A stretch of DNA of 64,000 nucleotides from Agelas oroides (Eukaryota; Porifera; Demospongiae; Agelasida; Agelasidae): contig OX422183.1 of the NCBI GenBank assembly GCA_949130485.1, positions 25,621,316-25,685,315 on the forward strand. The letters run 5' to 3'. The notes under the pieces were generated by a model that saw only the letters and a list, made by a program, of their open reading frames with translations, ran no database searches and was not told where the DNA came from. Shown piece by piece: positions 12,328-39,800 of this stretch; positions within the stretch are counted from its first letter, which is position 1, and every line of letters begins with the position of its first letter. Both the position numbers and the translations under genes were made by a program.

Positions 12328-12800
12328 CTAAGTAGTAGAATGTCCTTGTTCCTCAATCAAAGTCTTAAATTTTGACAAAATTATACGTCGGTGTATAGGC
12401 CTTTGAACTCCCAATTCAATCATTACATCATCCTTTCGTTGCATTGCCAGTAGCATTTCACCATCAATCTGATTGTCACTAAAGCTCTTTTTGTATTGCT
12501 CCTTCTCCTGTTGTTTCAGCCCATCCAAAAACTCGATCACCTTGTCTGCTGGGAAGTCCTTAGCTAGGGAACCAAGGCCCTGCAGCTGCCTTCTGAACAA
12601 GATTATGATTTTTAATCTTGCTAGTGCACTTTTTATCCCTAAGTCTTCAAGATCTTCGTCTGTGCACTCCATGAGAGCATCACCACTTAAGCCATTTTCT
12701 TCAAACTGTTCAGCATAGTCAGGGTAGCCTATGCTAATGACGAAGTTGGCTACTGCTTCACTACTGTATTGCCTTGCAAGTTGCAACAGTTGCTTTTCAT
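12328..12800 (-). CDS. rnf213-like: Last exon: two tandem SAM-like domains and stop codon
   Basis: The exon starts after CTGCAG at 12801 and completes a split Asp codon (G|AT) left by exon 16766-16864; it ends with TAG at 12328-12330. It encodes 157 residues. SAM 1 spans about residues 14-74, with FVISIGYPDYAEQFEENGL then SGDALMECTDEDLEDLGI and the terminal basic helix LARLKIIILFRRQL. SAM 2 spans about 86-150, with FLDGLKQQEKEQYKKSF, QIDGEMLLAM, DVMIELGV and RRIILSKFKTLIE. SAM domains mediate homo- or hetero-oligomerisation, or RNA binding. A SAM-only protein on its own is possible, but there is no upstream in-frame start with a separate 5' exon, while the splice to the RNF213 linker fits. 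An ATTAAA on the minus strand near 11804-11809 could be the poly(A) signal. Confidence 0.85.
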
Positions 12801-15800
12801 CTGCAGGAAACATTACAGCAATAAAATTTACAAGGCATACATAGTAACCATAATCAACTGGAAATTCCAGGCATTCACTTTTATCTGTTCACAAGTAGGT
12901 GAAAAATTCTGTGCATATTTGGTTCAGTCCAATTTTAACATCGCACATGAAAATAAAGCAAAACTCAGAATCCACAGTATAGTGCACAAAGCATCACTTA
13001 AAACAAAACTATGTAGTAAAAAATAGGCCAATTCTGTAATTCTCTAGCTCTTGTTCAGCAAGAATTACTTCTAACTATTCTCACAAATGTTTTTGCACAA
13101 AAAGGAGGCTTATAACTCGAAATATAAACCATACTACCTATTCACAGCCACAAAGTTGCTGGATGCCATTACATAATTTTGTGTCCATGTGCACAAGGTT
13201 ACTACCAATCTCAGTATCTTTGCAAATAATATCTCACAGGTGGGTTGTGAATAGACAACATTGTGTACTGAATTCAATACCATAGAGCTTTATTCAAAGA
13301 GCTTCATTGTTTCTTAGTACTCCTTCAGCTCTATCAATCATCCCTACATTGTTTGATACCATCCCCACACCTTTGCATGTTACGTTTTCCATTCTTGGCA
13401 AACTAGGGACAACATAGCTCACTCCATAGCCTAGCCTCGTCATACCCAGGCCACTCATCAAAAAAAGGAAATGGCCTGGTATCCACTGTTTGTACACATG
13501 CGACCATCCCCAGATAAACCTGGAGATCCAGTACAATCCATGTACGTTTGAAAATGGTTCACATAATCGTGCCAGCATCGTTGACAAGAGGGCAACTGAA
13601 TGAGCAAGAAAGTTGGCGGAAACCCAAAGTTCACTCTCAATCTGCAACAGTTGAAGGCCGTGTATCACGTATACGAGGGGATAGACGTTTTGGGTAAATC
13701 ACAAATTCGAAATGTTAGTAAATTATGTTCAACCCTGAGCATGAGCCTGCTCTCAAAGTACCTTAAACTTGTGCTCGACCATCTGCACTTTTATATACCA
13801 GACAGGAGCAGTAGCTAGATATGTGAAGGTAAGCCATCTCCTCTAGAAACAGACAAGAGAAGTACTAGTGAGATGATTCATCATCATGGGGCGAGCCTGA
13901 GCAAGCAGCAAACTGCTGATTTACTAATTCGTCATGGCACACAGCAGGATTTGTCACTGACAAGAGCGTAATAAGCTAAACTTGATGGCATATAAGTAGA
14001 TAAGTCCTCACCAGAGATAGCTAAGTATCACATATGCCAGCCATTTCTCCAGCCAGGGCAGCTCACATGCATGGACTAAGCTTTACACCGAAACGATGAG
14101 GTAAATTTCTGGCATTTATGAGTGCCGTTTATACATGGCCCTTACCTGAAGCGACCTCAACCACCGTCCCATATTAAATTTGTACTGCCTGTGAGCGGCC
14201 TGCCGTTGATGGTTGGTAGAAGCACAAACCAGAATTACGTTGCCACACAAACTTCAACTTCAGTCGTCTTCGCTCCGGGTCACCGACGCTGCACTCTGAC
14301 ATGGTAGCCCTCCCATGCCCAATCGATCTTCGTGAAATATTTGAATGCGCTCATTTAAAATTTACGGTAAGTGGTCGGTCCAAGCAAGCAAGCAAACAAG
14401 CATAGTCCGATACACACACACGTGCGCAATGCAGTTACGCTAGTGTGGGGCTCGCTCAGGCTCGCCCCAATAAACTAACCAAGAAGGCCAATCATGTGGC
14501 AGTCCACCTCACTGAATAGAGCAGTGGTGCGCTTGGATGTCACTTAGCTGCTAATCATTGTACACTCAAGTCAACAGCAAATAGCTCTCTCTACGTATAC
14601 TACATTGCAGACTTCCTCCGGATACAATCTATGAGAAGTTAGGCACATAAACCGAACAATTTTATGGAAGTGTACTGTGACTGCCGCACGTGTGCAAACA
14701 GTGTATACCAGGCCGTTGTTTCTTTTTTGACAAGCAGCCTGGGTACGAGGCTATCCTTAGCCTGAAAATTTGTGATGGATGAACATGTGTTCATGACAGC
14801 TTCCATTCGTATCGATCCATTTCATACACAAATTCAAGTTCACTCACTAGGGGAAATATTTAAACCATATTCACAGAAACTGATACATTCACAAATTTGT
14901 TGGTACTCACCTAAAACAGGAGCTGACAGAGTTGATTCTAGCATTACCATACCAGTCTGATGATGAGATCCTGTATTAAAAAAAAAAGTAAGGAATCGGT
15001 ACTCAAACACTACCAATAGATAAGATAGTCTGACACTCATACACAGATAAATAAGCCACACAGGTAATCGATTATACCACGGAAACGAAGGTTGTAACTA
15101 AATCTGACAACTGACAAGTGGAGTTCAAGCGTCAATTCCCACTTGCGCTAGAAGCAATTTAATGTAACAGTCCGAAACATTCGTATTTTCGGACGTCATT
15201 TCCTGTTCCTTGTCTGAAGCATCTTTTGGCAAGATTTTTGCACCATCGGGGAGCTACAAGACCCTCCTGCTGCACGCCTGATATTTGTCACCGTAGCTGC
15301 CTTAGGTACTGAAGGGTGTTGCTGAAATAATGACAGGACAGTAATTTTCGTCATTTTTCGCTGTGGACACCCCAAGCTACACATTAGACCTAAGATATTG
15401 GATGTGTAGGCCCTCACCAACATAACAGTACAAGTCACGTTTTAATACACTGCATGGTTCTCGAGATACAATTGTTCTTGATTCATACATTTCATAAAGT
15501 GGTAGCACTGTGTTTCCGTGAACTAGGCCTGCCATAAAAGCAGGAAAAACAGCTGTAGCTCGAGAACCACGCACCGTATAAAAGCACGACTTGTACTGTT
15601 ACGTTGGTGAGGACCCAATGATACCAGTATCATAGGCCTAATGTGTAGCTGGAGGCGTCCACAGTGAAAAATGACAAAAATTTACTGTCCTGCCATTGAG
15701 GGAGTGACCCACTCAACATTTCACCGACACCCTTCAGCACTCAAGGCAGCTACGGCAACAAATATCAGGCTTGCAGTAGCAGGGTCTTGTAGCTCCCCAA

Positions 15801-18800
15801 TGGTGCAAAAATCTTGCCGAGAGTTGCTTCAGAGAAGGAACAGGAAACGACGTCCAAAAATACATGATTCGTAGCCGATTATCGAACGTTTTGGATGGTT
15901 ACATTAAATCGCTTCTAGCGCAAACCAGAATTGACACTCGAGCTCCATTTTTCAGTTATCAGGTTCAGTGGACTCAGCCTTCGTTTCCATGGTATAACCG
16001 ACTATCTGCGTAGCTTATTTCTCCATGTACGAGTGTCTGCATGATTATTGGTGGTGTCCGAGTATCGATCGCTTACTCTACAATAGTTGTATTCTGTAGC
16101 TATAATGCATGGAATAGGTACCCTATCAATTTCAATGGTGTAGTACTAAGTACCCTCAGAATAGCAGTTACTACTACTGCCTACTCAGAGGTGCACTCAG
16201 GCAAGTCTATAACATTTTCATGTAATGTGATAGAATGTGGAAATGTGTTATTGATCCACAGAAAATACATTGTGGTACAGTTGTAACATGGGATAATCAT
16301 GTGTGGCTTCTGTTTCTGTTAACCAAAGTATCATTCATTGCTCAGTTAGTAGCTACTATTACAGTGAAAGGATTTTAAGTGTAGGAAAGAGTAGTCTTCA
16401 TTCACTTTTAGTATGTGCGCTAGGGCTTTAATAACTGCCAAGTCATTACCAACAGTTCAGGGCAATAAACTTCATACAATTCACTTCTATCTCTCAAAGG
16501 TTTGTTATTTTTCAGTTGATTCATGTTATGACACTACTGATGTTCATTTTGTTGACATCTTGTTTGCACATTGCCATGGTAACACTTGTTAATAATACAA
16601 TCTATTTGCCACTTGATAAACCAGTGGTTACTTAGTTAAACCATAGGCTTTCTCCCCTACAAATGTTTTACCCCTTATAGGTTCAATTGCTACACTATTT
16701 AGGGTAGTTAAAGCAGTTCCGATATAGTGGAATATTAGCAACATTATGTTGATTACAAAACATACCAGTCTTTTCCTCAGCTGATGTTGCTACAGGAAAT
16801 TTTGGCGAAGCACCAACTGACTTCTGAGTGACAGTTGACTCTTTGACAGACAGTGATGTTGCCCCTACATAGGTACAACAAAAAGTGTGGTGTGTTTCTA
16901 CTGCGTTTCTGTGAGTTGTGTATCAATTTACCTGTCAATGATTTTAAATCACTAGTGTGCAAGCTGGGAAATTCATCCAGGTCATCCTCATGTAATAAAT
17001 CAAACTGAGTGACACTGCTGCAAGTTTCAACCTTGATACTTTCAGTATCACTGTCATAGCCATGTTTGAATCCATAGTCTGCTTGGATGGTTTCGAGTTG
17101 AGCTTCATAGAGTTCTCCTGAGAAGCTGGAAACTAGTTCAAGCCAGCGTCTATCTTCTTCCTCTTTATCACTGGGTAAATCCTTTTGGACCTCTGCAGTT
17201 AGGCTTGAAAAGGTACACAGAAATAGTTAGAATACCTCCACAAGCAGTACACAACAGCACTATATATACAAAGATTAGCTGAAAATACATGCACCACTAA
17301 CTGTTTCAGGAGTATCCGTAGAGACATATAATGTTGGATCAAAATGGTTCGTGGTATGAGACCAAGAAATTCATCATGTCCCTCAAAGATGTCCATGGGA
17401 GTGAGGTAGTCAACAAGTGGTACCTATAAGTTAAAAACAGGCCTAAATAAACTACTAACAATGCCTTACATAGTAGCACCAATATGTACCTGAGTACCAA
17501 CAACCATAAGGTTTGATTCTAGGTGATCCAGGACTTCTCCTAGTAGCTTAAACTCCCTGAGCAAGTCCACTGACTCAGACCCTGCAGGTGTGAAAAAACA
17601 ACACAAAAGTCAGGTTGCTTGCTAGAAGTCACCAGAAGGTGCACTGTACTAACATATGGCTTGCATTAAACTGATTGCACATCTCAAAGAGATAATTGGT
17701 TGTAGCTATGTGGCAATGCAATCATGTTCATATGCTCTTAGCTACGCAGAACAAACCTTTCAGCAGTATTCTTATCTCACTTTCACTGGCTCTATTAAAA
17801 ATCTGTTGCATCACTCCTTTCACCATACTGCTATCTAATATAGCTAGCATACACAGAAGCCATGCGCAACATTGGGTGGGCCTACTGGCAGGCCAGACCC
17901 ACCCTGGTCTACCCTTAGCTACACCACTGAAAGTAGAAGAGTGTCTTCATCAAGAAGTTGCATTAGAGACATTTAGGCTGCAAGTGTAAATTCAGCAACT
18001 GTACAGTTCATTTTCAATGGATGCCAACTCTGTAATCATCACATCATGGAGTTTAATAAGATGCTCACATATTGAAAAAGAAATTGACTATGTAATTTTC
18101 TGGTAGAGAGTACATACTTACCGTTGAAACTCAGAGGTTTGGGCTGCACCCAAATCTTCTACAAGATGTCCACTAAACATATTATACTTTCCACTAATAT
18201 TGTCATACCTTTCTTACAGATGGAAGGCATCTTCCTAAGTTGCTCTACATCTTCTTGGTTCAGATGGACTTTTAGGGCATATGGCAGCCGATGGAAATCA
18301 TAGCGCCCTTCAATTGCCCATTGTGTAAAGGTAGTAAAGGTGTGGTAGAGACATGAAACTTTCAGGTTCATCAAAGTAGAAAGCTGATGTCCAGACAATC
18401 TGCATATGAGATATTAACAAAGCATCAATCCTAAAAAAAAAAAAGAACCATGGAAAGTGACAACTGACCTCCTTCCAAATATTTCTAATTCTTGTTCTTT
18501 TCCTTCCTCATTACAAAGAAAGCTTCTCAGAGTGAGCCCATGGAGGTCTGTGCCATCTGAACATGTTTCCTGCACCCTCTGTAAACAAAATAAATGATTA
18601 GTTTCTAAACAGAGAGACTGTCAGGAACATGCATGACTAGGTGAGCAGCATTCCAACAGCAAATACCTAACTACAAAAGTAAGCACGTTTGAGATACAAT
18701 GAGGGTGACTGAAGTACCTTTTCAAGGAGAGCAATTGCAGTTTTCAAACCAGTGACAACATCCAGCATCGTGTGGTAGTCCACTGAATGAAACTCACATT

Positions 18801-21800
18801 CAAGCAGTTGCAGTACAGTGTGGTCATCAGTGAAGTCATGCTGTATAAGTAAGCATACTTTGGACTGGGTACACTGCAAGATAAGTACTAGAATATAGAT
18901 GTAGTCAGATCTAAGTTAATAAAGTTGTAGTATTGTGTAAGCCGATACAAATCATGTATGTCATTAGTATTCCCTAATGATTACCTTTAAGGTTGGAGGA
19001 AGAAGCTTTCCAACTTGATTGAGATCTTGGCCAAAACTATATTGTCAAACAGGGGCAGACCTCAATTAAGCTGCCATAGTTATACAAAATATATAAGTAA
19101 AGCAAAACATACTTGAGTGGGTGAGCTTCATATGTATGCTTTGATACTTTGAATGTGAAAGGAATGTGCACTGAAGAGATGTTAGCAATCTTTGGCCGTC
19201 CACCTAGGTATAGAGATGCAACATCTTCTTGTAGCTTCAGCAGGTCTTGTACTGTAAGCAGGTGTGGATTCATCACATCTGCAAAGTGGGTTTTAGTAGA
19301 AACCTGGTGCCTTCGACAGACTAACTGAAGGAATTCAGTATCCAAGTTAGCCCTAGAATAATAAAAATGAGTGTCAGAATAATTCTGCCATCTATAGCTC
19401 ACTACTGGCACAAAAACGTTTGGCATACACTGAAAGACAGGAAGCAGCTCCGAAATGAGTGTACATACCCGTCTGACTTGCCAAGAATACATGTATTCTC
19501 AGTTACATCCACTGGTGTTATGGTGAGTGTATCAGGTGACAGGTATCGACTCAAATGTGTTTTCTCTGAATGTGATGCTGTCACCTGACTGCAGTCCAAG
19601 AGACTATTATGGCAGGTCACCTGCATAAGAATTGAAATAATCAACAGACTAATATCTTGAAACCAGTTAGAGGTAATTACCATTTCATGTATGAGCTTAT
19701 ACAGGATATCATCATTGGAGTTTGCAGTCGATGTGTTGGCATCCAGAGTAAGAAAATTTCTAACACGAATGCCTTCAAATCCTCCAGCAGAAGTAATACA
19801 GCCTGCAGCCCTCAAGTAGTGGCTGTATCCATCTATAGTAGAAGAGGTGATTTACAGTCTGTAGTTTAAACAGAGTTCACTTTGGGGCTAACTAGTATAT
19901 CAATGCTTACATCAATACTGCACGTGCACTGTTTCTGTGCTAGTAGAAAAAGTGGGACAGTGGGAGGTGGCCAGGTATTACCATCAAATGACAGTAATGG
20001 AGACTGTTAATATGGGTTGGCTGCAAAATGGCCTTGGTTGGCATTGGGGAAGCCATTTCTCTCCTCCGATGCACAAAGAGGCTTAGAAAACACTACTGTC
20101 ACCTTGTAGTGGCTCCATTTTTGGGGACTGTAGGCAGCTTTTATTCTGGATAGGTGATCACTGACTAGAATGACTATCAATGTTCATTAATGAGTGGGTG
20201 TAGTTAAAGTTAAATACCCGCACAGAATGTCTACGTCTACAACTGATCATGTTTGAAATTTGGTGCCTGAACAACTAACAGAACCAAACACCATAGCAAT
20301 TTATAGGCTAAATGCTGCATCCAGAGAAAATATTCAAAGTAAGAACAAGCTCACAGACAAACCTTTGACTCTTTGGTATAGAGACATCAGTTTATCACCC
20401 CTTTCACCAGCATAGTGCTTAGACATCTGCTTAACTAAGCTCTTTATAGAGATTTTATGGGCTGCCTCTGGTGTCAACACTCCTGCAAGATCCCTATGAA
20501 GCCACTGGTAGAATTCCAAGAAGTCAGGCAAATAGGGTAAAGTTGTCTGTACTTCAGGCATTTTACAAATAAACTGCGATAGCGGCCTTAACTTCTCTTG
20601 TGATTCCATTTGAACATCAGCTAATGAAAGTAGTGAATAAAGAGCAGTGGTACTGTCAGGAAAGTGTGGGTAGCAAGTTTGAATTTGCCTGAGGAAGAGA
20701 ACATTATAAACTCCATGACATTGAATAAATACATTAAAGGGAAAACCTCTGTCAATTGTCTACACACAAACCATAGTGTTATGTTGTGTTATAGTCATTA
20801 ACTACTCACAAGGGCTTTAGTAAATATAATTATAAGCTTGACTTCCAAGGGTGCGCTCAAGGGTAGTGTTGCTTATATATCAACTACAGCTTGAGGATGT
20901 TGTTAATAACTGGCCTCTATCCCACTTGCACATACAATCCAATGTCGCGGCATGTTTGGTATGTCAACAAACTTTTGACAGTTGTGCTAGTAGTTTTATA
21001 GTTACTCAGTTACCCGTACATGTGTCAAGCTGTGACTACTGCTATATTGAAACCATTATGCCAATTAGATGGGATGATGACAGCAAGTCAAAAGTGTGTC
21101 CATCCTAACAGGACAGTTGGTGGTAACCCATGATTCTCTAAGTCCACGAAAAAGCTAGCTTTGTAGTTACCCTGATCACAAAGCACTAACAGCATGGTGT
21201 GAAATCCATTGGGGCGTATCCTTGCAGGCTGGTTCTAAAACTAGCTATCACCATCATTGGAATGCACATAACAGGACATTAGGTAAAATGTGGTAAGTTG
21301 GCTTCCTGATAATGATTCCCGGTGTTACAAAGTTGTATCTTTTAGTCTAAAGATTAGTCAAAACAGCATCAGATTTGAATTCAGCTTCCTGATTTCCTAT
21401 GAACAATCTGACTTAGCACTGAGAAGCATCTCTGGCTCTAAGACATCAATTCATGGTCTGTGCTGTATGCTCAAATATGTACAGGAAGTTGATTATGTAA
21501 ATTTTACGGCAATTATTGAATGATAACTCCTTTTTTTTTGCTTTGAATACATGCCTTTTGAAAGCATCTCACAAATCAACCATTTACACACAATAGTAAG
21601 TTTGCATTTTAAGGCAATTTTTGCCTTAAACCTTAATTTCTGCTTCCAACATTACTTGGACAAGTTTTCTAGTGTATTGTCTAAGTTAGCTTGTGTTTAG
21701 TGAGCAATGCAAGTCCACAAAATCCAGACCCATAGTCATGCTTCAATCAGGTTTCTATTTGAGATAGAAAGCCTGAAGTATTCTACGAGCAATAAAATAC

Positions 21801-24800
21801 CTCATTAACACTCATCATATGAACATTTCAATAAGATGAACTTCATTGCACATTCTCACTTAATAATACATTGTCTTCCATGCAACACATTCAGGGTTGG
21901 AAAGACAATTACATAATCACTGTCATTCTTCACTACATCTATGAAAAGTAGGCTGCTCTAACAAAAACCAGTCTACACTTACTGTAAGCTATATAAGCAT
22001 AGGTACCCATCAATTACAAGTACCCTACAAATGTAAGTACCTATCAAAACTGTTAATTTCTTGAATAGTAGTACCCACATGAACAAAAGTACCCTATGAA
22101 TACTAGTACCCATCGCCTGTAAAACTTGACCCATCAGTGGGCAGAGTTTCATCGAAGAGTAAATGTAGCTCGCTGTCCCAGGAGCAGCAGCGGCAATTCT
22201 GGAGCCTGGGCATCAGTTGTGAGACACCAGCTCACTACAATCAGGGCGATTCAATGCTGACAATGTCATACAACGTGCTGCGTTTAGCACTTCAGGCGGA
22301 TGGTCAAACAGCCATTTTCTGTTGACAGCAGATGGTAGTGGGTCTATTCGTAAGCACAGAGTAGTCAAGCAATTCACTTTAGCAGCAGCTTTGTCGGTAT
22401 ACCACGGCATTGCAATGGGCTGTTCTTGCACTGCTGTATATTGCAAGAAAGCAGAACAATGGCCCACCTGGCATTGACCAAGGCTTTTCTACAGCCAGCT
22501 GCAACAGCCGCCATCCACTGTCACTCTCCGGGTGACACCCACCCATCTCCCCTCATCCCACCCTTTCTGCTAGCGCAGAACCTATCTTCAAAACGGATTG
22601 CGCCAACTGATAACATGCAGCCGAATTTCGATGACGACTATAGTTGCCATTCGTAGTTGAAGGGTTAAATACCATAATACATGTACTGCAAAGTGTGCTC
22701 TAAATAAATATTTGTCGATACCTGATGTCCACAAGCAACTTTCTTATTGGGGTAGGTAAATGCCTGAAGAACTGCAAAAGACAAGGTGTATTGCACATTA
22801 CCACTAGTCTTGTTCCTAAGCTCTCTTCACTAAGGAGGGGGGAGAGTCTGGGAAGGACACTACAATACTACTGCATGTACCAGACAACTGTCCAAGTATA
22901 TGTAATACCCTCCAAGTATATATAATACCATCAGGATATCTACTGCAAAAATCACTCATCATTAACAGTTATGAAAAGTGCATAATTATGTACAGTGGCA
23001 TAGGAACCGTAGTGGCCGTAGCGGCTACACTTTTTAGGCCGTAAATTAATATTAATAACCTGCACGCTATAAGTTAGCTCAAGCTAGCCTGGTTCTCTGG
23101 GCTAAGGTCAAGCAGCCTCTTCGTTGCATCAGTCTCATATGCAGTTACATGCGTACATTTCCGATTAAAGTACCCTATAAGGTGATCGAAATCTTGGCAG
23201 TGAGATGGCTTGGTACGAAGCTAATGCAGATTTTCAAAGAGACTACTACAAGCGACGAAAGCTAGCCGGGCGGTCTCCTGCAGCTGGGAATGATGACAAA
23301 GTCAGTATAATCTGTTTTCCACATAAATTGAATATTGTACTGGAGGGTAAGCTCTGAGAACGAGGCTAGAATATTATACACCGTTGAAAAAGGGCTTTAT
23401 TTTGCAGTCTAAAGGTGGACATTTTGAAAAAATTCGCCGCCGCGCTACTTCCGTTTTATTAACAAGGCTTCGCGCAGCACAGCATGGCCTCTACACTTCA
23501 AATTTGCTTCCTACGCCTATGATGTATACACTTACCTCTGCTCTGAGTTTCTTAAGACAAGGCAAAAATATAATAGAGTGCCACTGCTGCTCATACTTTG
23601 CAACCTTTGCCTGATCTGTGAAAAGCCCACTCATGTTTTCCTGAGATGGCTTCCAACACTGTGGAACAATAGAGATAATAGGTAGCATGTAACTACTAAC
23701 AGTTACATTTCTACTCGCACCTGAAGGTATGCTCTCATACACATCATCACCAAGAATGATAGCTCTTCATCTGTAAGCTGCATATTGTTTCTCATAAACT
23801 TCCAAATGTGGCGAAGCTGAGAGACACAATGCTTTTCCATTGGCTCTGTACTGGCTAGTATTCCACTCAACCTTTCACGATCTCGAGTCAGCAGAGAGAC
23901 ACAGAAGGAAGCAACATTAATCCACAACAGCATACAACGTGAATTCAGACTGAGATCACTCCTGGTTGACTGTTGTAAAAGGTGGCTTAAGTCATCATTT
24001 GTGATTTGTGCTCCTTCCTGATATGGTCTGCCTTCCTCAACACTGACAGGACCATCAATCTGTACAGACACATAAACAAAAGATAAAATTTTTGTCCCTA
24101 TCTGCAGGTTTACTCAGTCTTTCACTAATAAATAACATATTTAGCTAGATCTTCTACCATATATCCAGCCAAGTAGGTTCCACGCAGAGCTTCAGGAGCA
24201 AACACAAGGTACCACAGATGAGACCTCTTTTCACATGTGCGTGTTCCTAGTGCACATGCCACCAGGTTAGCCACAGAATGGCGCAAATGGATATCTGTAG
24301 GATCTACAAACCAAGTGTGAGACACAATACCAACTTACTTCTAGATCAAGCAAAAAGTTAAAAATTACGATTTATACCTTTGTTGGAAAGAGAAAACAGA
24401 TGATTGAGAGGCCCAGTTGTAGCATGACCCTTTGGACATGCAAACCAGCGAATCAGTTGTACAAAAGGCATGTCAAAAAGGGTGGGCGGAAGTTTGTTGC
24501 AAGCATCAATCAGTTCCTTAGACTGTTTCTGGAACAGAAAGGATTATACAGGTTACTGTAACATTCATTTCTTGACAACTACCTTCTTTAATTAGAAAAC
24601 CTCAGGCCTTCTTGACAACTACCTAAGAAAACCTTAACTGAGCTCAGAATACTATAGCCCTAGGTCTGTTGGATTTATTTTGGTTAACCATACAGTAGAG
24701 ATGGATCTAGTGTATGCTGACTCACATAATTCAATAAGGACATCAATTCATGATGATTAACAACTACAATGACAGTGTGGGTCAACATAGATTAAAAAAA

Positions 24801-27800: not shown

Positions 27801-30800
27801 TATGACTTCAGGGTATAAGTTTCCCAACCTCCAATGTGATGTTAAGCAGATCAGAAAGGTCACTGTGTTGATTGAAGAGGTATTCCAAGACTGTCATAAA
27901 GTAGAGATAGGCAAGTGGCTGGGATTCCAAGCCATTCTGTGAAAGAATCAAGAAAACCTAAATTATAGCTAACATTGAGAAAATGTCAAGGTCATGGTAC
28001 TGTGCCTCATCAGAATGCAGAGTTGAATAGCTCATCACCTACATATTACAAATGTGAGAAGAATAAACGATGGCTAACCTCAGAAATAGCTACTCCAGGC
28101 AGCTGATAAAAAGGAGGTACATATGTTCCTGTGACATCACTTGAAATCTGCTTGCTCAAGAATCTTCCCACTATAGCACGACCCTGTGATAATTTTTTAA
28201 AAAAATAAAAATACCTTAGTAGCCACATAACACTCAAAATAAAGTATACCTCAGTTTCAAAAGGAGGAACCCACTGCTTCCTCCGCTCCTCTCTTGCATT
28301 AGTTTGTGTACCCAGGATCTTTAATAAGTAATATTTGAATAGGTTGAGTGGAACACGGTGACTGTTATAGTGGAAAAGCAAATCTGATTGGACTTGATCA
28401 CTGTCACACGAACTCTGTGATGCAAGACTGATTCTTGACAACGATGAAGACCTCAACCAGTGTTTCTGCTCATTTATGTGTCCAAGGAGCCACCAAACAT
28501 TGTTTTTATGAGGCTTTTCATAGTAGCAGAAGAAGTGTGTAAGTAATCCCTCAGTTATGAATGCTTCAACAGCTGGCTCCACATCAGGGCTGTCTACTGC
28601 TCGATGTCGACCAAATGCTTCTGCAACTGCCACTGAAATTTCAGCAATCTGTGGACCCCTTCCATTTAACTAATAAAAGATGAGAAGTAAACGCAACTTT
28701 CACTACTTGCAATAAATAATACGATGATTAGCCTACCTCAAGACCACGCATCACAAAATGTTCACTGCGGAGCCCATTAACCATAGCCTGGCACCTCATC
28801 AATAAATCATTGTCACTGGGGTCATACTGGACAGCCAGGAAGGCAGCATGCATGACATTCAACTTTGCCTCAGATGTTGCTGACAATGAACTGTAGATAC
28901 GTTTGCGTACAGCAGGTGAAAGAGTCTTCAAATGTGTTGTGTGTATGGGTGTGAAAAGATACATTGCATTTACACTATGGGTAGCTGAGAATTGAAATGC
29001 GAATAAATCCACAGAACATGCTCATTTAGGCAAAAAAAATGCCAATGAAGCACTACAAGTATGCCAAAATATTGTGATTTAATTGCTAGTTTAAAAGTGC
29101 ATGCAAAAGTACTTCATGCCTGTACAAGTACCAGAAAGCATATACGTAAAATCACGGTATAATTATTGAATGCTGCTACTACAACACAGCTCTCAAATAA
29201 AGGTGGCTGTGTAGCAGGCCAATAGAGTGGAAGACTTACGTACCCTTTCCATGAATTTCGTAATTACAAGCAGATTTCACAAAACAAATTGTCTACTGTA
29301 CATTGTATGGTTCTACTCGGATTCCATTTGGTGCCACACTAGTATTGAAGGCTCAATACATGTAGCTACATGATGTGGAGGGTAACTTTAGTATACTTTG
29401 ATCTTCTTCAGATACAGAGTAAACCCTTCAAAATATAATAGCAATGTGAGACCTCCATAACATTATTGTTAAAATCCTGTCAAGCTAAAAGTACCCAGCA
29501 ACAATGCACAAGCATCAGAAATTAGCTTGAAATGTCAAATGGCATTTATTTTCTCATAAGTGAAAATAGAGCAGCTACATGCAACTCCTTTTTTCTGCGT
29601 ACTAAACTTTTGATATATCTACAAACAGGGGCAACCCATTTTCATTTAATCTTTTTGCACAAATTATGGCACTCAATTAGCTATGCAGAGCAAATTGTTT
29701 TACAAGTGTGTCTCACTGCAAATCTTAGATATAGCCAGTTGCATGTAAAATCTTAGAAGTCTGACATCATTGAAGTGTTTGAATAATGCACTTAATATCA
29801 ACTTACCATAGCATGGTAGGCATTGTACCACAGCTTCATATCTGTAATCAAACTGTGACGTTTACCAAAAACTGTCAGAAGTGTATTAAAAAGAGTGTTT
29901 AGTACAAATGTGTTAGTATCTTCTGTTGTTAGAAGAATTGCTGATGATGTAGATGAAGAGCGAATCCTTCCAGAAACTTGCTCAGATACTGAAGTCAGCT
30001 TGATAAGTGACATCAAGGCAGCAACATTCTTTGATATAGTTGACTGATTCAGGTGTGTATAAACATGGAGTGATGTCAACTGAGACACAGTAGAAGCTGA
30101 CGAGGTACAAACAGTTCCAAAGGCTGCTTCAAGTGTCTCTTCAATGACTTGTTGATTGTGCGACCACAAAGAAAGTTGTTCACGGGTAAAATCATGAAAG
30201 TATCTGTCCCAAAGTTCTCTATGTTTATTCATTGCTGCCACAGCCACTGCAACACACCCCTCATGGTCCTGCAGTGGAGACTACTGAAGATAATCTCAAC
30301 ACACAATATAATTATATAAATACAAATTACCTATTACCTTCATTATGTTTACAAGATGTTTTTCCACCTGCTTTTGAAGTTGTTCTTCGAAGTCAAATTC
30401 TCTCCTCTCTTGTAAGGAAGTGCCATCAGTATTACGTAAATCCTCTGACTGGCAAAGGTTACAAGCAGCTTCCTTTACTATATCCATGATTTGAGGTGAA
30501 ACAATTGCAAAAAATGGGAAAAGATATCCTCCAGTAACTTTTTCCTTGCACTTTGATACTTGTTGAACACTGCTCAAAATTTTCAGTTTAGACAGCTTCT
30601 GTGGAATGGGAAGGCATCTTGTCAGATCAAGGAAGAGCTGTTTCACTTCCTCTGTGCTCTTGCGACTGAAGAAGATGTCTAAGTTATAATTGTCATTCAT
30701 ATAGTCGACCATGTAGACAACAAAGTCTAGAAAGTGTGACTTCATAATGGAATGAATGGAATCTGTAATATTTAAGGTGGTTTTTCCTGCCTGTGTAAAC

Positions 30801-33800
30801 TTTACAGCACGATGGAGATATTCAGTCATGACTTCTGCTTTCCAGTAAGATTGAAAGTGATGGCAGAGTGCATCACCTACCTCTGTGTCAAATAGCCTCT
30901 GCAATCCTTCACTTCTTGCCAGTGGTGTCATTTTCTGATTGAATGGTCTTGTAGTTGAGTAATCCGAACCAAATGACAATCGAGAGACTACATGGGGGAT
31001 GGACTGATGAAGGAGATGTTTTAACATCTTGAAAAATGGATCTTCAGCACTAGATGTACTTTGCTCAGAAGGAATACAACTCATATAAAACCATTTCACA
31101 CTGTCAACAATACCAATGGAAAGCCCATGTGCAATGGTGTCAAGGTAATAATGGTCCCATCCCTCAAGGAAGAGTGAAGGGTAACAAGCAGTGAAAAACA
31201 TGGACGGTGGAAAGTGTAGTAGAAGTAGAAAGAGCTTAGGTCTAGAAGATTCCTTAGCAATAGCTTCCTCTTCTTCTATCATCACCCTCAGGTGGTTAAC
31301 AGTATTTCTGGAGACTTCTTGCATGTTGGCTAACAAGAACATTACCATTTTATCAGACTCCATAAATGTTTTCAAGCTTTCTTTAATGCTTCTTTGTGAT
31401 TGAGCGCCTTCCAATTTACACACAACTAATGCTGACACGTCTTGGAGTACTATAGTTTTTAGATCACTTTCATAGTCAGCAATTTCAGTAGGAGAGTGAA
31501 ATGCACTAGGATACACACTTGGAAGCTTGTGTATCAGTGGTGAAGTTCGTGTGAAGCACAGCAGCTTGGTACTTGGGCTGAAACAAACAGTAGTAATACG
31601 TTGTACAACAATAAATGAATACTAGCGTGTGACAGCTACACTTACTACTACGTATCATTAAGTATTAAGTACATACTATGATTAAGCATTCCATACATAC
31701 CTTTTCCCTATTTTGAGAAGCTGCTGTTGTATGAGATCTTTCAAACTAAAATGTTTCTGGTAGGTAAGGTAGTTGTGGATGTACGATGCAGGGACCTGGC
31801 GCTCATGCAGTACAAGTGCTTCTGGAGTCATTAGTTGCATTAGTGCTTTGCAGAAATGCCTAACTAGCCACTGGACAAGAAGTGACCATATTAGTTTGGT
31901 TGCGGGGGCTGCAGCATAGGCTGCATAAGTGGAATCAACATGGCCTCTTTGAAGTGTATCTAAAGCAGAAAGGACAGCTACTCTTGCAGATACCGGGTCT
32001 TTCATTTCCATCCTCATCACTCCTTTAAAGTCTGGATTAGAACTCAGAACTAACTGGAACAAATGTTCAGCATCCCACTTCATTTCTTCTTCTGAGCACT
32101 GAAGAAAATAGAAAACATTCAACCAACTAACAAAATGCTGTACCACATAAATGTATAGAAATTGGATCACAAACCTCTTGGTAACAAAAATTGAAATTTA
32201 GTTTTAATGCCTCGGTAAGGACTTGCAAAATACAGATTTGCTTCCGGTGTGCATTTTCAAAGTTGTCAGTGGAAGGGAGTTGCTGAAGTGATACTGTGTT
32301 CATATCAGTTGTAGGAAGCTTTGACTCTAGTGGCAGTACTGTCAGCAGCAATGAATCCACTGTCTCTTCGCAGAGTCCATAGAAGGCAGATGCACCACCA
32401 ATGCACTGTACAAACTGTTGTACCTGCAAGAAACCATTAATTCTTACAGAACTACCTACTAATGTTATTTAATTCTCTTTAGGTACTGACACTGATGCAG
32501 TGAAGCTGGAAAACCTGGGATTAAAGTTATTCTTAGACTCCAATAATTATGCATTTCAAGGTTAATGGCATTATTGTGTTCAACATAGATTTGCTGTACC
32601 TTTTCATATGCAGCTTCCATAACTGACTTGAACTCTGCTGGAAAACTCCCAAGAACAGATTCTAAAACACTTTTGTGTGTGATGTAGTATTTTTCAAACC
32701 TGTTTAAAAATGGTGCTGGTGTTCGATCCAGTTCTGACTTTTTAATTGCCACCACACACTGAAATTTGGGATGAACACGGCAAGGCTTAAGATGAGCACC
32801 GATGGCAATGTTAGCGTATAGCCGTGTTCCAAACTTTGGGTCATCAATTCTTTGAAATCTTCGATTAAACAAGTCATAGAAACTCTCATGAATATCATCA
32901 GTTTGTAACATCACAATACTGTGGCCTTGAATGGCTGAGTGCCTAATCCCAGCAATTGTGTCAATCTGAAAAAAGAAAATATTATGGTAAATCCCATGCT
33001 ACATGCATATACTCTATGGAAAATATTTTGTATGGTAAATCCATACATACTAAATGTTACACTATGCATAATATATATAATAGACAATATCCCATGCATA
33101 CTGGATTACGTCAATGTACTGCACAATGCTAGATGCACTACCAGTCCCAGTGGCTTACCTCAAAGTTGTCTCAAGTCAGGACTATGCAAGATAGTCAAGC
33201 CAAGCTGCTCACAATGTATCAAATATGCACTCTTGGAACACGATTATAGGAACACTCAAGTAAGGCATGACCGAGCTATGCTACTCAGCTTTTGTATAAT
33301 AGCAGATATCCCAATGCTATCTTCATGTTTCGGGTCTGTAGCTTACTATATGATTGTGTAGCCACTTTTTACATGCACATAGCTAGCCGTGCATGGGGTC
33401 CTCACATACAGTCCATTCACAGCAGTCCTAGCCTCGTTTGTAGGCTCTCCCCTCACCCCGAATAAAAATAAAAACGAGGGGGAGAGCCTGGTATCGATTC
33501 GCACATGATATCGCGGCATGACGCGCATATGCCTTTGTACTAACTATTAAATAACCTGAAACGTCACTCACGTGAAGACCGCGAAGTAGCCGCGAAGTAC
33601 TCTCAGGTCAGGAATTTGTTACTACAACTTGTTTTTTGGTTGTGTAGCTATGTTGGAGCTTTAAAATGTGGCTGTGATTTTATTTTGGATGCCAGAGTGT
33701 AGCGCCAACCAACTAAAGTCTTTCTCCATAGCTTTGTGGCAATATTTTTCAAGCGAAACATGGTAACAGCAAATAGGCAAAGCCTTACCTACACACTGGG

Positions 33801-36800
33801 TACTTCTCCGCTGTCGCTGCTGTTTAAACCATGCTGAGGTCTCACCAACGAAGTCTCAGCTCACTTTTTCAGTAGTAATATCAAAGCTGTTCGAGTCAGC
33901 CTATCACGTGGCTACATAATTGCATCATGACTTCTATCTATATGTTGTGACATCGTCGTGCCACGATATCATGTGCGAATGGATACCAGGCTCTCCCCCT
34001 TCGTTTTTATTTTTCGTCAGGGCGAAGGGAGAACCTGGGAACGAGTCCTAGCAATATCAACACATCTCCTTGAATCACACATATATCCCCTCTCTATGTT
34101 TTGTGTGGCTCTTGCAGTCTTTAACATAATTATGCTGCCTCATCACATTCAACTATCCAAACCATGCACAGTTGAGATTGCAGCGATGTAACTGCTATGA
34201 ATAATTTCATATTCTAACAAGATGGCGTGTCAGTCAATCAGAAGATAGAGGATTTGCCCTTTTTAGCAATTTGCTGGTCTGGTACTCCAGCATCATTAAT
34301 GGTCCTGTGCTCTTGAAAACACTTGGCAATGACTGATTTGGCTCATAGAGGCCTTTGACTAATCTGGAGCAGATTCTTCAAGGATGTCATCTGTGAACTT
34401 TCAGTGTGGTAACCATTCCATTTCTGGGCCATCACTACATATAGAGTACTCCTGTAGTCCATGGTAATCACCCAAGCTTCATCTTTATGTGTTTCAAAAG
34501 TCACAAACTTAGCGGCCCATAGATGACAGTTAACCACTACACTTTGCAGTAGCAAAATAGCCATTTCTTGGTAATTTGTTGCTCAGTGATGCTGATTTCT
34601 GCACGTAGTTCCATGACCACTCATCTTTGTAACTGAATATACTCTGCCTATTTACAGTCATGCTATAGCGGGCTGCCATTTTGTGGGAGACCATTTTCTA
34701 ATTCTGTACATGTGCAAATACTTAGGCAACCCTTCTACCTTAGCAAAGGACACCTTGGTTACTATGACTTACATGGGTGAGCTTACACCAGTAAGCTCTG
34801 ACTCACTGTTGTTTGGGCATTGTATAGGTAAATAGCTGCATTAATTAACCCACACTGTCTAATTTATAAGTGCAGAATGTTGTCCATTGCAGTTTGAGCA
34901 ATCATACCTGTTGTCCATACACACTCACCCCTTGTAGTTCCATAAGCTCAAAAAAATGTGTACCCCCTTTTTACACTCTACTTTGTGGAAAAAGTGGGGA
35001 GAGGGCATTTTCTCAAATTAAATTAGTCTGAAGCATACACCCCCCTTGTTCCTCACAATGTTATGCGAAAGTTCTATCAGGATGACTGCCACAGTTTTCT
35101 GGATAGCCTCGTACCCAGGCTCCTCCTCATGCATGGGGAGCAGCCTGGGTACGAGGCTATTCCTGGAAGTCACAGCTTCACTGAACGTGTACTACACGAA
35201 ATCAGTGGCGCTTGTGTTGATACTAAGCCAAGAGGCAACAAAGCAACTTGCATCGTCAGTGGTGACAGGGGATGACCCTGCATAAACTTCGTATGTATGC
35301 ATTTACAAACACAATCGACAATGGAGCTAAACCAAAAGTTCACTATAATCATGCCTAGAAGACACTCACTACAGGATTTTGACAGGTGGAAAAAGTACCT
35401 ATGCAAGAAATTGGAGGTTGAAGAGGGGGGAAGGCACTTACTCAAAGGTGATGTATTTTGGTAGCTTACAGTACTACCTAACTTTTAGTTCTGCAAGTCA
35501 AAAAAGGTGAGATGAAGACCTGCATGCTACATTGGCTGCAACTGGAAAGTATTGTAATGTCCAAGAAACTGGACCAACACAAGCTTGTACTTGTAGGGCT
35601 ATCTATGCCCGTGTCGTCCCTACTTACAGTCTAGAGACTCTGAGATTAGAGAATCTACAGACTCTCTGTACTAATATTGTGCACACACTGTATTGCCATG
35701 AGTAAGCTCCCATTTGCATGCAATCACTCCCCAATTTTGACAGTTCTACGGTTTTGTGGGGTCTTCTGTGTAACTGCCCACCGTGCGAAATTCTTGTGTG
35801 CTGACTTTAAAGTAAGTCCATTTCACAACCTGTATTGTCACTGAGCTCATGTACATACCTGCGCAATCGCACTTTAGGCACCACAATATTAGACAAAGTT
35901 TCACACACAACAGTCTGTAGCTTCGTCTGCAGCGTTCTTGCATACAGCATGTTGACAAATGCTGTAAAGGCTTGGCAATGAGGCTACAGGTTAGTTGATT
36001 TTCTTAGATGATATAGCTTTCTTAACTACTAGGCAATAGCTATGCTTGGCAAAAAAAAAGCATGAGCAAAGCGACAGTGCAGGTTCATTTGGTAGCCCTT
36101 GGCAGCTAATTTCAAACATGAAGTGAGCAATTACACATGGATAGTTGAATCATTAAAACACCTCTGTGCAACCACCCACCACCAAAATTTTGGAGCTTGA
36201 GCTGCAAGCATCCATGGATGCTTGCTTGGGGCAATACAGTAATTCATAATTATGCAGTTATGTGCTGTAATTTGACATTTACCTTTTGTAGTTCAATGTC
36301 TCCAGGAAAATCACTGCAAATGTAAATTCTTGCATTCCGTCTTTCTAGTATCTTTAACTGGAAAAGGAGTCTCACCAGGGAGTCATCCTCACTTGAGTGG
36401 ATAACAATTTTGTATCGCACTTCATCCTCCATACCAGGCATCTCATTGAGGCTGTCCTTCAAAACTAGTACTGGATCACACCTTGCAACATCAGCAGTGG
36501 GCACATTCATCTACAAGAAAGGATGTCCAGGAATAATTACTACATGTACACACATAACTATGCTATATATGCACAGGCTTAACATTGAAGTCAATCTTAC
36601 CCTGTCCAGGAAGACCTCAAGGATTTCTAATAGCTGCTGTGAACCACTGAAATTTCTCTCCAATGATTCAGTCACAATTTGTCCAACTTGATGCAGTGAT
36701 AGGTCTGTGCCTCTTTGTACACACATACGCCGGATGTAATGCAAAAAGTGAATGAAGTCTCTAAGGCCAAAGAAATTGTTTAGTTTCATTTCAGTCATAA

Positions 36801-39800
36801 TATGGGTATAGGCATTGTGAAGGTCCACAATTACATTTATATGCTCCCTCAGATTAAGTGGAGGACAACCAGGTGATTCAAACAAACACTCAGTAGCAAG
36901 AACTTTCAGGTCTTTTGTGATCTCAAGAGGATCTCTGAACAAAGTAACAGCTCTGTTTGTCTTAGCTGCATCTAGGACAGTATTTGAAATGGCTACAAAA
37001 GATACGGAAGGATTATCAAGGTAAGAGTGAAGAATCTTCAAAGACTCATGACTGTGTTCCGGCAAACCAGCTTCATCCATGAAGACAATGCATTTAATTG
37101 GAAGTGAAAATAGTGCATTGTTCTTTTGTCTTGCAATAGCTCGTGAAAACACAGTTTGAATTTCATTTGAAGTTGTGCATCGTGAGCATTGGTAGAAATG
37201 TGGATCAAGAGACAAAAATATGTCAGTATTACGAAATACATACTTCTTTGATTCCTGACCTTTGAGATTGGACACTGCTATGTTGAATGAAAGAGTTTTT
37301 GACGAACCTGGCGCACCAACAATTATCAAGGGTGTCTGTGTTACTGTGCACAAAATTATCGCAAGAAGATTCTCCTTTAGGGCTTGAGTTTTTGCAATGC
37401 CTTTAGGAAATTCAATTTGCTGTGCATACCACTCGAGCTCACTTTGAAAAGCTTCAGAGAATGGCAGTGCTGTGAACTTGTGCTTAAGAGTAAGATCTTG
37501 CTCGTATTTTGCACGATACTTTGTATTAAGTCTCATGTAGTAGACAACACCAAGAGCAACAAGAATGGCACGATAACTGGAGGTAAAGTCATCATCATTG
37601 TAAGGTTTCATTCTTCGATAGAATTTTAGTAACCATCCATAAAAAGTAAAAGTTCGTTGAATATCTCTTTGGCTAACACAACACTTAGAACTAAATCTGG
37701 CTTCCTGCTCTGTTAATTTCCATTTGTTCAGTTCTTCAAAGGCATACTGTCGAATTAGTTTCTGACTAGAAACTATTACTTCTGTCAGAGTTGTCTTCTG
37801 TAAATCAGAAAGCCAACTGCTTTGCATGTCCACTTTTGCCTGAACATATTGCCTTTCTTGATCTTCACCTAACGATCCGTAGTCCCACATCAAGTGGGCA
37901 AGTGTAGGATGCAGTTGTCGAACATAGTAAGAGTCCATTATCCATGTTTCATCTAAAGTATTATTGGCTCTGGGTTTGCTTGTTTTGGTAGCTAGATTTA
38001 GAGCTGCCAAGCTGTTTCCTCTGTGTGGGTTGCATGCTGCTATAATGAATACATTTTCTGGAATTGGCTACAAAAGATGGAAACAATAGTGTTATTATTC
38101 TGACAATCGTCATTTTCTACTTCAAATACTGCACAATTTAAAGAGGTCAAATAAAACTCTTATTGCAACACAAATGTAAGGCTGCAACAAGCATAGCCAA
38201 AGCACATATAGAGGGAAATTTTCATAGTTGACACAGATACCTACAAGAGCTTTAGAAGATATTTTTGTTTAATGTCACATATTGCCAACCCCCCTTACAT
38301 CATGTCATGTCCTGTTGAGGCAATGATGAGACTACCTTACTGTTGTAGTGAAAATTGCCATGCCATGCTGTGTGAAAATTGCAACAGAGTTGATCGATCT
38401 TTGACTGTCATTATAAAACAGAAGAAGGCCATCATATTTACTCTCTCCAAGATAGTTCAATCATTGGAGGTTTGTAAAATTATGCCATGTTCACTCTCCA
38501 CATTAGAGTCACTGGTTGAAGTTAACCATTCAAATTTGAGATGTTACAAATTTCCTAGAAATGAATTTATGCACAAAAGGAAAAAACTAAAATGTGCTAT
38601 ATAGGTAGGGGAAATATAATTTGGTGGTTTGGGGTTTGGTAGTTGTTTAGCATACTATCACATTAACATGATCCTGCCAACCATAATTCAACTTGTTCGT
38701 GGAGTTTCACGCAACTGAGTGCTGAGCTGGCACGATTTCACTGCCTCTGGAGGCCAATACCCACTTTTAAGGTCCTTCATGATCAGAAAAGCAATTAATG
38801 GTGTGTAACTAGCTCAGCAAAGATCTAGCTACCTCAGTACACATGACATTCAGGCAGTGTTATTCTTCCATACCACTACAGCATACAGGTCAGTCAAAAT
38901 GCCACTCATTAAGATGACAGTGCTTAAACAAAAATCAGTGAACAAAATTTTGGAGACATGGTGTTCTACTGTTGATCACAAACTCATCAGCACAGTAACA
39001 CAGAGCTAAGCTTAAATGAAAACGGCCTAAGGAAATTTTTGCCCATTTTTGAGCAATCTAAATATTATTACCAATAATTCTGGCTATACGGTATGCACCA
39101 TACAAATATTCCTACCTTATTATATTAATTTTTAAGTATTTTGTCTAAGAATTTGACAGCATTCTGTTACTAAAATAGACGTAATATTCCATTAACTAAA
39201 TTTATGTCCGTCCAGAATCCTGAGGGTAAAGCGGAGTTATGATTATTTTGATGGTAAATTAAACTCTCAGCCTAGAGGATTTGATATATATATATTACAC
39301 AAACATGTGAGTTAGGGTTAAAGAAATCAACAAGGCTTGTCAGCATTTCATCATTATCAGTTACCTCTCCTTCAAATGATTTGTCAATGATCAATTCTTT
39401 AAACAATCCTCCACATGTTGAAGCATTTAGCTCATCCAGAAAAACCTGAGACATACGTAAAAGACAGTTGGTTAAACTCATTGACAGTAAACATCACAAG
39501 CATTCAGATAACTCACTGTGACATTTGGGGCACGAGAAAAGCTAGCACAAGCGCCTTCAGTTGCTTTCTTCAGTTGTTGTGCCTGCTCAAACACAGTTCC
39601 TAGTACTTTGGATAGATCAGCTGGTTTCAATGCTAGTGATAGATAGTGGCAGTAGTTGCAAAAACATGTTTATAAACGTATAGTTAAAAACCAGATGCAG
39701 AAAATCTACGTACATCACTCACGTTTGCAACTTGCAAAATATGAAATGCCCAACATAAACATGGTCACTCACCAGCATGAACACTCAGCTTGTGGAATGT

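Follow-up and report, generated by a model that had tools for sequence, protein, structure and literature searches.

Background

Vertebrate RNF213 (mysterin) is the closest described relative of the body of the gene analyzed in this work. AAA3 and AAA4 are reported as the competent ATPase sites of mouse RNF213, and the protein without its RING stays active (PMC7311170). The human RZ finger is built of C4505, H4509, C4516, C4525, C4528, and H4537, and ATP hydrolysis by RNF213 was required for each of the three pathogens tested, RZ ligase activity was required for bacteria only, and RZ was dispensable for coats on the Toxoplasma vacuole (PMC11549300). The coats formed by vertebrate RNF213 on pathogens are described there as initiating slowly and growing cooperatively, with oligomerization proposed as the extra force. 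Two other reports mention RNF213 oligomers on lipid droplets (PMC8486878) and induction of RNF213 in activated immune cells (PMC13319465). With regard to the tail of the analyzed gene, the nearest solved structure is the tandem SAM of SARM1, whose SAM1-2 alone forms octamers (PMC7688312). Within the literature covered, which was judged by titles and lay mostly outside subscription papers and preprints, no paper on an RNF213-SAM protein was found.

Structure of the gene and of its C-terminal tail

The window, i.e., the whole analyzed stretch of 64,000 nucleotides, originates from contig C1 (25.62-25.69 Mb) of a single assembly of 259 Mb in 141 contigs. The gene lies on its minus strand and runs from approximately 50.6 kb (or further upstream) down to 12.3 kb. 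The gene model was built by dynamic programming on conservation in neighboring copies and splice sites; this draft, which replaced an over-permissive first version, is approximate, with several spurious tiny exons and first exons that are not resolved, and the limits of the C-terminal exons were set by hand. The large exons are conserved in neighboring copies and open in the window copy. The encoded domains follow the order: N-terminal arm, dynein-like AAA core, E3-scaffold-like C-terminal half without RING or RZ, acidic tether, and one to three SAM domains, two of them in the window copy (Table 1).

Table 1. Features of the RNF213-like gene with a SAM tail (positions in the window)
Feature	Position	Strand	Remarks
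N-terminal arm exons	45823..50612	-	First exons not resolved; conserved in copy 25.176, the sole copy retrieved to this point
P-loop GVAGVGKT, probably AAA2	45410..45748	-	Draft model; assigned by order
P-loop GETGVGKT, taken as AAA3 Walker A	43130..43449	-	Draft model; weak NACHT/AAA matches; assigned by order
AAA3 Walker B VFLDELNAST	39299..39445	-	Aligned to RNF213 FFDEANTT; limits from draft model
AAA4-AAA5 exon, Walker A GAPGSSKT, Walker B IVFMDE	36550..38067	-	RNF213 match; limits from draft model
Large exon after the AAA core	30338..31621	-	Genome matches; finds the 14 copies also marked by the AAA exon
Presumed RZ-finger place	24369..24540	-	Reads CPKGH in the window copy; equivalence to the RZ finger inferred
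E3-scaffold-like C-terminal half, no RZ finger	17490..24528	-	About 13 draft exons; draft model; conserved in paralogues
Exon A, end of the RNF213-like body	17302..17423	-	Ends ..AAA CA|, phase 2
Exon B, acidic tether with YGF..G motif	16932..17203	-	Starts |C (split His CAC); ends g|gt, phase 1
Linker exon C, 99 nt	16766..16864	-	Phase 1-1; 2 matches in copy 25.256, 3 in tail 25.365
Possible optional linker exon C2, 60 nt	14911..14970	-	Phase 1-1; AG and GT flanks; weak matches in L022, L025
Last exon, two SAM domains (156 aa after split Asp) and stop	12328..12800	-	Phase-1 entry; stop at 12328-12330

The preliminary description had proposed that the exons continue past the usual RNF213 end, via a split His and two phase-1 junctions, through an acidic tether into a final exon with two SAM-like domains. 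All these elements were recovered: exons A, B, C, and the last exon join in frame exactly by such junctions (apart from shifts of a few bases in the exon boundaries and the possible additional exon C2), the tail extends beyond the end of the solved RNF213 chains, exon B encodes 90 residues with a net charge of -16, and the SAM exon reaches 94 bits with Pfam SAM_2 (E 5.4e-27) and 90 bits with SAM_1 (E 9.2e-26), against cut-offs of 20.5 and 23, in two stretches each. Judged by colinearity and order, exon A would be the counterpart of the last exon of the RNF213 copy on C8, which ends in a stop.

Exon B has seven matches genome-wide, each of them located 0.56-6.0 kb ahead of a SAM exon. The corresponding tails, all on C1 and referred to here as the tandem tails, comprise the window tail, the tails of five further tandem copies, and tail 25.365, which lacks its own body. 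In four of the seven tandem tails, linker exon C had no match, and the repeated matches in 25.365 (locus L025) and 25.256 (locus L022) are candidate duplications, by which the tether length may vary. The matches of exon C2 in L022 and L025 are weak (59% in translation; E 0.06 and 0.08); the frame does not need C2 and is unchanged whether it is included or skipped. Two further elements were observed in the introns of the tail. The intron between exons C and C2 carries a foldback element (window 15097-15969) with four inverted-repeat pairs, whose arms of 59-151 nt are 80-87% complementary. In the last intron, the stretch 13864-14471 gave translated matches (53-100%) to locus L030 only, out of the gene order, and is probably a dispersed repeat.

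AAA core and N-terminal arm

The assignment to RNF213-type AAA giants, made already in the preliminary description, was supported by the core. The exon sequence 36600-38067 matched RNF213 chains in PDB with an E-value of 7e-27 (phmmer), and the hand-joined exons aligned to RNF213 from AAA3 Walker B to AAA5 (E 7e-46), with AAA1 and AAA6 remaining outside the alignment. The window motifs GAPGSSKT and IVFMDE aligned against the AAA4 motifs of RNF213. Thus, the protein has a dynein-like AAA core related to RNF213 by sequence, with Walker A and B motifs in both AAA3 and AAA4. In the N-terminal region, searched over 43.0-52.9 kb, in which the first exons are not resolved, there was no Pfam match to CBM20.

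The C-terminal half and the undetected RING and RZ

Between the core and the tail, the similarity to RNF213 becomes weaker. One segment (draft exon 20363-20748) matches the E3 module of RNF213 by profile. The C-terminal profile of the family contains seven of the eight available rows (copy 25.518 was left out, while rows 24.902 and C23 are partial); in its comparison with an alignment of human RNF213 and the C8 copy, 63 columns were matched with an hhalign score of 43.8, above all 100 of 100 column shuffles (mean 16.6, maximum 32.8). Alone, the match was weaker (E 7e-4 among 507 open frames; probability 7). Against PDB, the family profile of the C-terminal exons gave no matches at E up to 1, and that of exon 30338-31597 gave one chance match and no RNF213 chain. 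The E3-scaffold-like half is therefore probably retained, as seen for one segment only. The "normal RNF213 C-terminus" of the preliminary description could be upheld in part: the 63-column segment speaks for it, but strong RNF213 homology is confined to the part from AAA3 Walker B to AAA5 and the C-terminal profiles hit no RNF213 chain.

No Pfam RING was found in the three minus-strand frames of 17.4-40.6 kb or in five exon pieces, a search that an exon-split RING could escape. The RZ finger (PF20173) had 11 matches in the genome, none of them within the 14 copies of the window family. At the presumed place of this finger, five paralogues read SSNDQ, SPKDY, SHKDH, SPKDR, and SPKDP, i.e., Cys is absent from all five and His is kept in one; no usable match was obtained in this region for 24.902 and C23. 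It should be stressed that the absence of RING and RZ is defined at the profile level and on draft exons, and such searches could overlook a zinc fold that is highly diverged or divided between exons. An ordinary RNF213 with RING and RZ was rejected on these profile searches, and the ubiquitin-attaching parts seem to be lost. The earlier reading of the gene as an ordinary RNF213 with added SAM domains had to be corrected: since neither RING nor RZ is detectable, the gene would represent a lineage that has diverged from RNF213, and not simply an RNF213 ligase to which SAM domains were added. It is, moreover, one of at least 14 copies. The remaining scaffold may still transfer ubiquitin, because mouse RNF213 without RING stays active.

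RZ fingers do occur in the same genome. Eight of the RZ sites are located on C8, C13, C20, and at C1:21.3 Mb (one of them, C13:8226023, with a stop inside), and for seven of these eight the AAA query gave a weak P-loop match on the same strand, located 14-43 kb upstream. The RZ-bearing RNF213 family itself thus seems to be expanded. The other three RZ matches (C23:333212, C23:345953, and C19:4430863), two of which lie in open frames of 1860 and 2104 aa, look like other genes. No SAM_1 match was present within 90 kb of the eight RZ sites. The C8 copy was read in part: when its C-terminal pieces were assembled by eye, the similarity to solved RNF213 reached the CTD end (E 1.5e-24), after which a stop follows, and the family SAM profile found nothing in the 20 kb from the C8 RZ finger. 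Searches of single window exons against this copy (tblastn) did not give convincing matches (best E 0.006). Within the reach of these searches, the SAM tail and the RZ finger appear mutually exclusive in this genome.

Relatives, charge, and conservation of the SAM pair

As a single sequence, the SAM pair of the window found the tandem SAM of SARM1 as the best match among solved structures (3e-7). A profile of nine of the 15 known tails matched the same structure at 9e-13 (51.4 bits), with both SAMs and the linker in one stretch. The next best was the tandem SAM of Liprin-beta-1 (1e-10, 44.8 bits), a scaffold protein without an AAA core. Because Liprin-beta-1 scores so close, the pair may be called SARM1-like, rather than proven to be derived from SARM1, and the octamer geometry of the latter is not implied. 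The window SAM exon contains no TIR and ends in a stop. The genome encodes its own SAM-SAM-TIR protein of the SARM1 type, in a single open frame of 371 aa (locus L041 132-1244; C19:6964300-6965600; Pfam SAM_2 and TIR_2).

SAM polymers are usually held together by pairing of an acidic mid-loop with a basic end helix. In all nine sequences compared, the mid-loop of SAM1 has a net charge of -4 to -11 and its end helix of +2 to +5. The mid-loop of SAM2 is likewise acidic in 9/9, and its end helix is basic in seven and neutral in two, with segment limits in SAM2 set by eye.

The tail evolves unevenly. In Nei-Gojobori comparisons, dN/dS of the SAM exon had a median of 0.22 and a maximum of 0.33 (21 pairs), that of exon A a median of 0.31 and a maximum of 0.50 (15 pairs), and that of the tether a median of 0.47 and a maximum of 0.71 (21 pairs). 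The SAM exons are under purifying selection, and the tether diverges fast while the SAMs are held.

Proposed mode of assembly

We lean, with reservation, toward the view that the window gene belongs to a SAM-assembled RNF213 lineage without the usual ligase elements, in which assembly via SAM contacts would be gated by ATP. Assembly by such contacts is expected because the ATPase motifs are kept, RING and RZ are not found, and a tethered SAM pair is present. The AAA core would bind or hydrolyze ATP at AAA3 and AAA4; the SAM pair would connect monomers in a head-to-tail fashion, through contact of the acidic mid-loop face with the basic end-helix face, and the tether would extend the range of these contacts; and the product would be rings or coats formed without the RZ-driven ubiquitylation that vertebrate RNF213 needs on bacteria. 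ATPase activity, SAM self-assembly, formation of coats or rings, and an immune role are all predictions from the domain content. Arrays, pathogen coats, and recruitment of adaptors, as suggested in the preliminary description, are likewise predictions, though SARM1, the closest solved tandem SAM, forms octamers. Against self-assembly it can be argued that SAM tandems can bind other proteins without assembling themselves, that the SAM2 end helix is neutral in two of the nine sequences, and that the copies C4A and C4B, each with a single SAM, do not fit a SARM1-type ring.

In an alternative to which we assign a smaller, yet appreciable, weight, the SAM pair is a docking module and not a polymer, and brings SAM-bearing partners to the AAA machine, for example an adaptor or the SARM1-type protein encoded by the same genome. 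The presence of the SAM-SAM-TIR protein fits docking, as does the number of SAMs, which ranges from one to three, and the contrast between the fast tether and the held SAMs is what would be expected of a flexible arm bearing a binding module. However, the acidic mid-loop and basic end-helix faces of SAM1 are kept in all nine sequences, which suits like-with-like contacts and counts against docking.

A bolder form of the assembly reading, which we regard as rather doubtful, holds that this RNF213 lineage swapped ubiquitin-driven coat growth for a built-in SAM assembly of the SARM1 type: ATP-gated giant rings without RING or RZ would multimerize by their tails and possibly co-assemble with the genome's own SARM1-type NADase. 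If true, such a signaling or coat platform would have no counterpart among those described for RNF213 in the literature searched.

A multicopy family

The genome contains at least 14 copies of the gene: seven on C1, three on C3, two on C4, one on C5, and one on C23. The AAA4-AAA5 exon and exon 30338-31597, both used as body markers, pick out the identical 14 copies. Outside this set, there were a distant match (33%) to the AAA query at C5:7594841, without a downstream SAM_1 match among the at least 83 present in the genome, weak P-loop matches, and a fragment on C7 matching exon 30338-31597.

The number of SAM domains varies: C4A and C4B have one, copy 24.902 has three, and the others examined have two. 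The three SAMs of copy 24.902 (L032:1331-1972) lie within one open frame. Directly downstream of the own tail of copy 25.369, there is a second tether and SAM cassette (L025, C1:25365529-25367653) with intact exon B and SAM acceptors, for which no body of its own was found; it is possibly an alternative 3' end for one gene. Moreover, SAM loci of the same type without a nearby match to AAA or to exon 30338 were observed at C2:2438642-3001894, C20:3848025-3849465, and C3:12602634-12604612. The C20 and C3 loci have a tether, and the C20 tether match contains a stop. These tail-only loci are either relics or separate genes.

Such loci (on C2, C20, and C3 at 12.6 Mb), together with the stop in the C20 tether match and one TAG each in the C3b and C5 homologues of exon 30338-31597, could indicate that the tail or the gene is decaying and that many copies are pseudogenes, which we consider quite improbable, since the SAM exon of the window copy shows dN/dS of only 0.09-0.15 against the six other tails and the large exons are open, while a single TAG within a match may be intronic.

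Linkage of the SAM exon to the RNF213-like body

That the RNF213-like body and the SAM tail constitute a single fused gene, as claimed in the preliminary description, is virtually certain, and is supported by the shared acceptors and phases and by the stop-free joins. In all seven tandem tails, exon B and the SAM exon follow in the same order and on the same strand, with shared splice sites and phases; the exon B acceptor, its phase-1 donor, and the SAM acceptor are present in 7/7, and the exon A donor in 6/6 of those for which exon A was fetched. The joined A-B-SAM tails (exons C and C2 left out) are stop-free. The gap between exon B and the SAM exon, 4.1 kb in the window, is only 557 bp in copy 25.176. 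No support was obtained for a SAM exon with a first exon of its own: upstream of the AG acceptor, the frame closes within 6-30 codons in each of the seven tails, and an in-frame ATG precedes the acceptor in only two of them (the window and 25.256), at different distances.

Further evidence comes from outside the tandem array. The divergent copy C3b (L039) has an exon-A-like end and, behind a 76-bp intron in the same phase 2, a single exon encoding both the tether and SAM1 (junctions read by eye); this exon carries the YGF..G motif and a SAM1 recognized by Pfam SAM_2 (4e-11), and SAM2 lies in the next exon. Furthermore, a SAM match was found downstream on the same strand in 14/14 copies found in the genome, at a distance of 14-66 kb, where about 0.011 SAM match per copy would be expected by chance within 66 kb (given the at least 83 SAM_1 matches in the genome); the copies are related and do not represent 14 independent trials. 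The extremely improbable alternative of a separate SAM gene downstream of the RNF213-like gene, which could draw on the 4.1 kb interval in the window and on its in-frame ATG five codons before the joint, was thus rejected on the tail splice sites, the frame closure, and the joint tether-SAM1 exon of C3b, the short gap in copy 25.176 and the linkage in every copy also standing against it.

Comparison with known systems

It appears that evolution here joined a SAM pair of the assembling type to an RNF213-like body and dropped detectable RING and RZ. The SAM-tailed family may, therefore, build protein assemblies by a route other than that of human RNF213, and the label "RNF213-like" in invertebrate gene lists need not imply a ubiquitin ligase.

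The tandem SAM of SARM1/TIR-1 (PDB 6QWV, 6O0T) resembles that of the window in that both SAMs and their spacing align in one stretch, whereas the window protein has neither ARM nor TIR and its SAMs are attached to an AAA giant. Liprin-beta-1 is alike as the next-best tandem SAM match. The RZ-bearing copies of the same genome share with the window gene the AAA P-loop (a weak match upstream of seven of the eight RZ sites) and, in C8, the RNF213 CTD, but they keep the RZ finger, and C8 stops after the CTD without a SAM; comparing both lineages within one animal could separate the contributions of ATPase, assembly, and ubiquitin transfer. With vertebrate RNF213/mysterin (PDB 6TAX, 8S24), the window family has in common the homology from AAA3 Walker B to AAA5, the AAA3 and AAA4 motifs, one segment of the E3 module, and the overall order, and it differs in lacking a detectable RING or RZ, in being multicopy, and in continuing past the RNF213 end with an acidic tether and SAM domains.
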